Assembly: GCA_024695315.1 (NCBI GenBank)
Contig: JAILIJ010000166.1
Span: 1-34,408 of the forward strand
Source: Bacteroidaceae bacterium
Lineage (GTDB): Bacteria > Bacteroidota > Bacteroidia > Bacteroidales > Bacteroidaceae
Length of the DNA stretch: 34,408 nucleotides
Direction of reading: 5' to 3'
Position 1 is the stretch's first letter; the number at the start of each line of letters is the position of its first letter. Made by a program: the position numbers and the translations under genes. The notes below the pieces were generated by a model, which saw nothing but the letters and a program-made list of their open reading frames with translations, did no database searches and was not told where the DNA came from. Of this stretch, positions 447-1,591 are shown piece after piece.

Positions 447-999
447 AAAATGATACCTATAAAGGATGTGTTTTTTCACATATTTTTGAATGGTAAATTT
501 ATTGCCTGTTTATTGTCGCAAAATGTGGTCTTACTGAACAAGTAAAAATAGTGCTTTGGAGGATATAGTTTCAGTCACAACAATTGTTTTTTTAACTTTA
601 CTTTTTCTACATTCAAACTATTTCAAGAACTTAATTTAAATCATGATACTATGTTGATGTGAAAAAAGTTTTAAAAACTTTTTAAGAAAAAATCCCCCTT
701 TTCCCAAAAACAGCATGTATCTGTATAGTTTTTAAGTGGCTACGAGGGAAAATGTTTTGTAGAAAAACCCCATAAAAAACCAAATTTTCGTATTATGAAT
801 TTTTAATATGTGATTTATGCTTGCCTTATCTTATCATTACTTATCATTATTATTGATGCAGAAATTTGAAAAAAAAAATTCTTGCATAAAGAAAAAAGGA
901 AGTTATAGGGAGAAGTAATAAAGATTTAAGATTTGTTCGCGAAAAAATTCATGACGTCATACCGTAAAAAAAGTGTTGTTCACTTATCGTAAAAAATAA

Positions 1000-1182
1000 A
1001 AAAAGCACGTCAGAAAGAACGTACTTTTCTACCCCACCTCCTTCGACAACGGTTCGTATTGCCTTCGTAATTCCTTCGTATCAATTACTAATTTTCTTTT
1101 GTGATAAAAATCAAATTCTCAGTAAGAGAAATCTATCTTCATCTCTTGAGAAAATCGGACGTCACGCATTGTCGTCAGATGA
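1000..1182 (-). ncRNA. Predicted small RNA of about 180 nt (or short leader-peptide transcript)
   Basis: On the minus strand: TTTG (1219-1216), 20-nt spacer, TATATTTG (1195-1188), matching the -33/-7 consensus; internal hairpins (TCTCAAGAGA, TTCTCttactGAGAA); intrinsic terminator AAAAGTACGT-TCTTTCTG-ACGTGCTTTTTTTATTTTTT (one G-U). No long ORF. Confidence 0.5.
1042..1085. repeat. 11-bp tandem repeat x4 (TTCGACAACGG TTCGTATTGCC TTCGTAATTCC TTCGTATCAAT)
   Basis: Read directly; TTCG at 1042, 1053, 1064 and 1075. Confidence 0.7.
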
Positions 1183-1591
1183 ATGAACAAATATAATGAA
1201 TTTAACAAGGATTTGCAAATTTTCATTCTTTGTCAACTAAAGATTTAAGAAAGTTTAACTCTTAAAGTGTCAGCGCATGACAAGATAGTATAAGTTTATA
1301 GCCTCACATCCTTTTTTTTGCATTTTTTCACCTATCTAATATAAGGGATATCATACAATACGCTTATTACTCATATCCAATATTTGCATAATATTACATT
1401 CAAAAATCCATCGTTCCCATAATACTCCCAACAATAAATCAGAAAACAAAATAATCATTTTTCTCACATAATAATTAAAGAATTGACCTCAAAACCCTAT
1501 ATAATATATCTTTTTTTGTCGAAAAATAGATTTTTTGCAACATATTATTACAAAAATAAAAGATTATAATAACAAAAAGAAATAAAAACGC

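Follow-up and report, generated by a model that had tools for sequence, protein, structure and literature searches.

The window, a stretch of 34,408 nucleotides, opens on the minus strand with a gene start cut by the contig end (positions 1–105, MKSNLKKSLVEYMGILLGCFLVSVAFVFFINPYK), the product of which looks like what we take to be a YitT-type membrane protein. Two dispersed sequences follow: a short CGGAA-rich repeat at 208–279 (ACCACGGAAGGCACGGAAAGAACGGAAAGG), with similar stretches on C3 and C292, and a repeat of about 200 bp at 631–837 on the plus strand (AAAAACTTTTTAAGAAAAAATCCCCCTTTT...CCATAAAAAACCAAATTTTCG), which recurs in varying orientation near copies of the element described below on C3, C286, C278 and C170 and on a contig from a metagenome-assembled genome (MAG; copy L073). 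Beyond these, on the minus strand of the gltB region, lies the predicted gene of a small RNA of about 190 nt (994–1182), delimited by a promoter and a terminator, which we consider real as a feature of the sequence.

The candidate RNA gene

The preliminary description of this DNA had proposed a minus-strand promoter, a terminator, four 11-nt repeats and a 16-codon open reading frame (ORF) starting at 1169, and each is found where it had been placed. The −33-like TTTG (1219–1216) is separated by a 20-nt spacer from the −7-like TATATTTG (1195–1188); both are read directly and recur across copies, the latter also in the alignment of long copies, and the position of TATATTTG would put the transcript start near 1182. 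A terminator scan of positions 1–1800 returned exactly one site, against 0.4 expected, namely an intrinsic terminator-like hairpin with a T tail at 1030–999 of the minus strand, which is seen again in type A copies and in many of type B, the two subfamilies of the element. The predicted fold of the 196-nt strand has an energy of −52 kcal/mol (z = −2.97), a stability equalled by 1 of 200 shuffled sequences. As sequence features, then, the −33/−7 promoter, non-coding body and intrinsic terminator of a stand-alone Bacteroidota sRNA gene are all present. Rfam contains nothing that reaches its gathering threshold, all sub-threshold matches in 1–1780 having E values of 3.8 or worse, and a tRNA search found none.

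The element reads as encoding an RNA rather than a peptide. Neither the start codon nor the frame of the 16-codon ORF (1119–1169, minus strand) is kept: among 17 type A copies, seven start with ATG and one with GTG, and the length of the frame varies from 4 to 40 codons. We therefore judge that it is not a gene, and the leader-peptide transcript that had been offered as an alternative to an sRNA fails because the ORF is not conserved. Two further motifs were considered and set aside. The Shine–Dalgarno-like GAAGGAGGTG of the window copy is absent from lower-scoring loci of the host genome and from two congeneric genomes discussed below (G029 and G065), so no ribosome-binding role is proposed for it, and a hammerhead-like CUGACGA was rejected, since it reads CUAACGA in several copies.

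The repeat element and its copies

The predicted gene is embedded in a larger unit with sharp limits. BLAST alignments of the copies end at about 1358 and 982, the long copies are conserved over that stretch, and the information content of the flanks drops to near zero just beyond a TTTTAYGATA motif at both ends. The window copy is thus a 377-bp type A element (982–1358, minus strand), oriented with the RNA. Its 5′ terminal direct repeat, placed by boundary alignment, occupies 1349–1358 (here TTGTATGATA, consensus TTTTAYGATA), and its 3′ counterpart, TTTTTTACGATAAG, occupies 983–996; in a genome-wide motif count, TTTTTWAYGATAAG has 26 exact matches, nearly all at known copy ends, versus one for a reversed-pattern control. 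The terminal repeats are spaced 364–365 nt apart in most type A and 332 nt apart in many type B copies, and element length is accordingly about 345 or 379 bp (range 345–380). The 3′ terminal repeat is missing from 38 of 77 core copies, so that not all of these are intact elements. Upstream of the promoter, an alignment of 18 long copies reveals a strongly conserved block, ACTTATACTATCTT...TTAAATCTTT, at 1232–1295.

Copy number was gauged in the host assembly (2.84 Mb in 376 contigs, 81% completeness) at several levels of stringency. BLAST of 980–1240 (minus strand) recovers, besides the copy in the window, 11 more at 84–88% identity over roughly 250 bp, the 193-nt RNA segment has 40 matches, of which 15 besides the window copy are full-length at 82–90% identity, a 25-nt core occurs 77 times with at most two mismatches, and a model of a 78-nt core reports 143 loci at E ≤ 0.1. 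In 48 of 68 copies, or in 62 under a relaxed pattern, the conserved TTCATC is preceded within 16 nt by a −7 box (TAnnTTTG), versus one at a control position; a run of at least five T residues follows the core on its 3′ side in 53 of 75 copies, a count made without a control. Because the whole arrangement recurs across copies, the succession of promoter, RNA and terminator is far above chance. The host genome carries roughly 60–80 scattered copies of a 345–380-bp repeat that comprises a promoter, a predicted structured RNA and, often, a terminator.

The copies are intergenic, the right-hand gene lies on the same strand in 34 cases and on the opposite strand in 31, and no neighbouring gene was seen to be common to them. 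Considering this intergenic placement and the balance of neighbour strands, the high-scoring copies, that of the window included, appear to behave as free-standing units. The undescribed sRNA of the preliminary description thus stands as a predicted RNA gene, with its promoter, terminator and compensatory pair changes kept across copies and with a hairpin-bearing copy in a second species, but not as an sRNA unique to the gltB region, since the gene sits inside an interspersed repeat of about 377 bp that is present dozens of times. On the sequence evidence, the gene is one member of a large family of RNAs that has not been described before.

The element is mobile-like and of fixed length, from which we infer movement. 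Its termini are direct repeats with a near-palindromic TTAYGATAA core and no terminal inverted repeats, which sets it apart from miniature inverted-repeat transposable elements (MITEs). Inspection of the flanks by eye disclosed no target-site duplication, and neither a transposase, an empty site nor an insertion polymorphism was found; in the empty-site comparison with MAG contigs, the gene flanking one copy (L072) has no more than a distant homologue in the host genome. An apparent flank shared by L073 and the copy on C3 was rejected as a sign of orthology, as it overlaps the 200-bp repeat noted above and proves nothing.

RNA structure and covariation

Over 64 copies, 87.5% of the cells of 26 proposed base pairs hold standard pairs. 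Cells changed on both sides number 70, versus 36 in shuffled alignments (0 of 500) and 20–28 in slid controls; the shuffles keep the relatedness of the paralogues, and part of this signal reflects the A/B subfamily split. Among the strongest pairs is 13–140 (AU in 37 of the 64 copies, GC in 14, an A–C mismatch in 13), which belongs to the long-range helix P2 (helix 2) between CGACA at 1170–1174 and UGUCG at 1044–1048, and which is also among the top pairs of a free covariation scan that is otherwise dominated by the subfamily split. Compensatory changes are likewise seen at pairs 48–78 (GC 28, AU 20) and 59–68 (UA 25, CG 16). A central hairpin, GAUGAA.../...UUUAUC with an inner stem (helices 3 and 4; 1103–1143), is also found in a copy from another species. 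The RNA structure across copies is thus supported, with relatedness only partly controlled.

Toward the 3′ end, a small hairpin, GGGGUAG-AAAA-GUACGUUC (helix 5; 1017–1035), has 95.6% of its cells paired (GGGGUAG...UACGUUC), with changes on one side only. It overlaps the 5′ arm of the terminator, so that the two would be mutually exclusive. Between this hairpin and the central one lie the four 11-nt repeats, running from TACGAAGGNNN to GTCGAAGGAGG (1080–1037) and read directly as the units TACGAAGGAAT, TACGAAGGCAA, TACGAACCGTT and GTCGAAGGAGG; they are common to the lower-scoring loci and to G029 and G065.

Distribution beyond the host genome

Conservation in relatives, which the preliminary description had named as a test, turned out to be strong among paralogues and patchy between species. 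The 25-nt core is absent, at up to two mismatches, from 44 other congeneric genomes, and BLAST of 980–1240 (minus strand) against 60 relatives gave nothing comparable except short partial matches in G029. The 78-nt core model, at E ≤ 0.001, identifies 54 loci in G065, 28 in G029 and 26 in G019, with few or none in the remainder of 45 congeneric genomes, about four of which hold large locus sets. The matches in G019 score low (7e-7 at best), and the repeats there differ in appearance, making the membership of that genome in the family doubtful. Several loci of that genome (L161, L169, L174, L184) carry two to five units of a related-looking TCTCGAAGGCA with no visible promoter, and most such arrays have a conserved GGTGATGGAATTATC ahead.

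A full-length model yields 12 matches in G029 and nine in G065. The best of these across species, a G029 copy (L235; 71.5 bits), preserves the central hairpin in an altered sequence. An order-wide search produced isolated weak matches only, at E about 1e-5 or worse, and plasmid and phage collections gave only weak matches of about 40–50 nt. Exact core matches elsewhere are confined to three short contigs, probably misbinned, from MAGs that carry the labels Lachnospiraceae and Treponema.

The 11-nt unit in other contexts

The 11-bp unit is found in three arrangements: the stand-alone elements, promoter leaders accompanied by phased A-tract arrays, and short arrays. Of 40 lower-scoring loci examined in the host genome, 16 have phased 11-bp A-tract arrays (AAAAGYATCRA) upstream of a promoter, and in 12 of the 13 decidable cases of this class the gene that follows is co-directional (p = 0.0017), versus 15 co-directional and 7 opposed among the remaining loci. 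An earlier co-directional count of 16 of 17 came from a mixed first batch of 20 loci under a looser ORF limit. The CGAAGG repeats of the array-class leaders run in the same sense as those of the sRNA element. In one series of loci (L210–L229, e.g., L217), the A-tract arrays lie directly upstream of the promoters and 11-nt-repeat leaders of diverse genes, with neighbours that include glyA-, gyrA- and cobJ-like proteins; arrays in G065 are built from a different unit, GAATCGAACTG. Many of the loci outside the A-tract class consist of short CGAAGG arrays that lack a promoter match; such arrays at L297–L314 consist of TACGAAGGTAA, and several are flanked by TTTTGTCA-like sequences.

Comparison with known systems

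The BOX elements of Streptococcus pneumoniae are modular intergenic repeats, about a hundred in number, with the capacity to fold as RNA; they belong to a phylum unrelated to the host and are not known to have been described as stand-alone terminated genes. Nearest in kind, by description, is PINSR, a non-coding intergenic repeat of 188 bp that lacks terminal inverted repeats, has 177–184 copies per genome and is confined to some species of its lineage (2015, PMC4755523). In general description it resembles the element in its intergenic location, lack of coding capacity, high copy number (more than 170 for PINSR) and lineage specificity, and it differs in its 188 bp versus 345–379 bp with terminal direct repeats; promoter, terminator and RNA structure, all present in the window element, are not among the features given in the PINSR description consulted (PMC4755523).

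The nearest sRNA family is FopS of Bacteroides, likewise paralogous, from Bacteroidota and mostly intergenic, whose RNAs have canonical sigma-ABfr promoters and are bound by the RNA-binding protein RbpB (Ruttiger et al., 2025, PMC11697453). FopS RNAs are 65–70 nt long, carry the R1′ seed in their 5′ part and have 12–15 copies per genome (14 in B. thetaiotaomicron), as opposed to about 190 nt and 60–80 copies here, and no bounded repeat has been described for them (PMC11697453). BrickBuilt of Porphyromonas gingivalis is similarly intergenic and dispersed, contains short tandem repeats (a 23-nt minisatellite) and gives some transcripts, but it is MITE-like, with terminal inverted repeats, 19 loci and bidirectional promoters (Mob DNA 2015, PMC4596501). 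None of the three matches the element in all respects, PINSR being judged by its description.

Interpretation

Considering its copy number, boundaries, orientation pattern, recurring promoter and terminator, and covariation, all of which are read from the genome itself, we regard 982–1358 as probably a multicopy structured-RNA repeat, in anatomy as in class. It would be a non-autonomous, mobile-like interspersed repeat carrying a complete stand-alone small-RNA gene, made up of the conserved block, a Bacteroidota-type promoter, an RNA of about 190 nt with the central hairpin, P2 and four CGAAGG repeats, and an intrinsic terminator. A mobilizing enzyme acting in trans may have spread the copies between genes by transposition. 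CsrB-type RNAs titrate CsrA; by analogy, the transcribed RNA might act in trans as a multi-site decoy that titrates a factor binding the CGAAGG boxes. Since the repeat has the same orientation in sRNA and leaders, the two would more naturally compete for one binder than pair with each other, and competition is accordingly preferred. This decoy role for a putative CGAAGG-binding factor is our preferred function, offered tentatively.

Among the alternatives, a miniature selfish element, in which the fold of the strand serves nothing but the element's mobilization in the manner of REP/RAYT or IS200/IS605 hairpins and transcription is incidental, would explain the high copy number, sharp ends and constant length, the orientation-independent intergenic sites and the patchy species distribution, and even the covariation would be expected if movement needs structure. 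We hold it to be rather unlikely, given that mobilization does not require a matched promoter and terminator at fixed, conserved positions, and that the element has no terminal hairpins or inverted repeats and no transposase was found.

It is a little less probable that the repeat operates as DNA, with the phased 11-bp CGAAGG units and A-tracts forming nucleoid- or transcription-factor-binding or bending sites and the RNA a by-product. The three architectures of the 11-bp unit and the TTTTGTCA-like flanks of several arrays are in keeping with such a role, but binding to double-stranded DNA leaves the compensatory changes in RNA helices unexplained. Still further down in likelihood are portable promoters, that is, elements that persist by giving their neighbours a promoter and a 5′ leader: the array-class loci do read into the next gene, but a terminator is often found in the stand-alone copies, which are not biased in orientation. 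Despite the correct spacing of promoter, structure and terminator, it is highly improbable that the feature is a trans-acting sRNA gene present once and peculiar to the gltB region, or a transcript for a leader peptide: dozens of dispersed copies at unrelated loci have already refuted "single copy", and the ORF is not kept between them.

Returning to the multicopy structured-RNA repeat, its furthest-reaching version, in which a mobile element spreads ready-made sRNA genes and thereby creates dozens of paralogous decoys, all vying for a single factor with the 11-nt-repeat leaders of many housekeeping genes, is speculative, and we would not expect it to hold in full. Families of paralogous sRNAs in bacteria are usually small, with a handful of members; 60–80 copies of a bounded repeat with a promoter, a covarying RNA and a terminator would make this family exceptionally large, and would reveal one way in which sRNA genes can multiply. 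The role of intergenic repeats such as PINSR in the phylum would also become testable, through their transcripts and through a protein that binds the 11-nt repeats.
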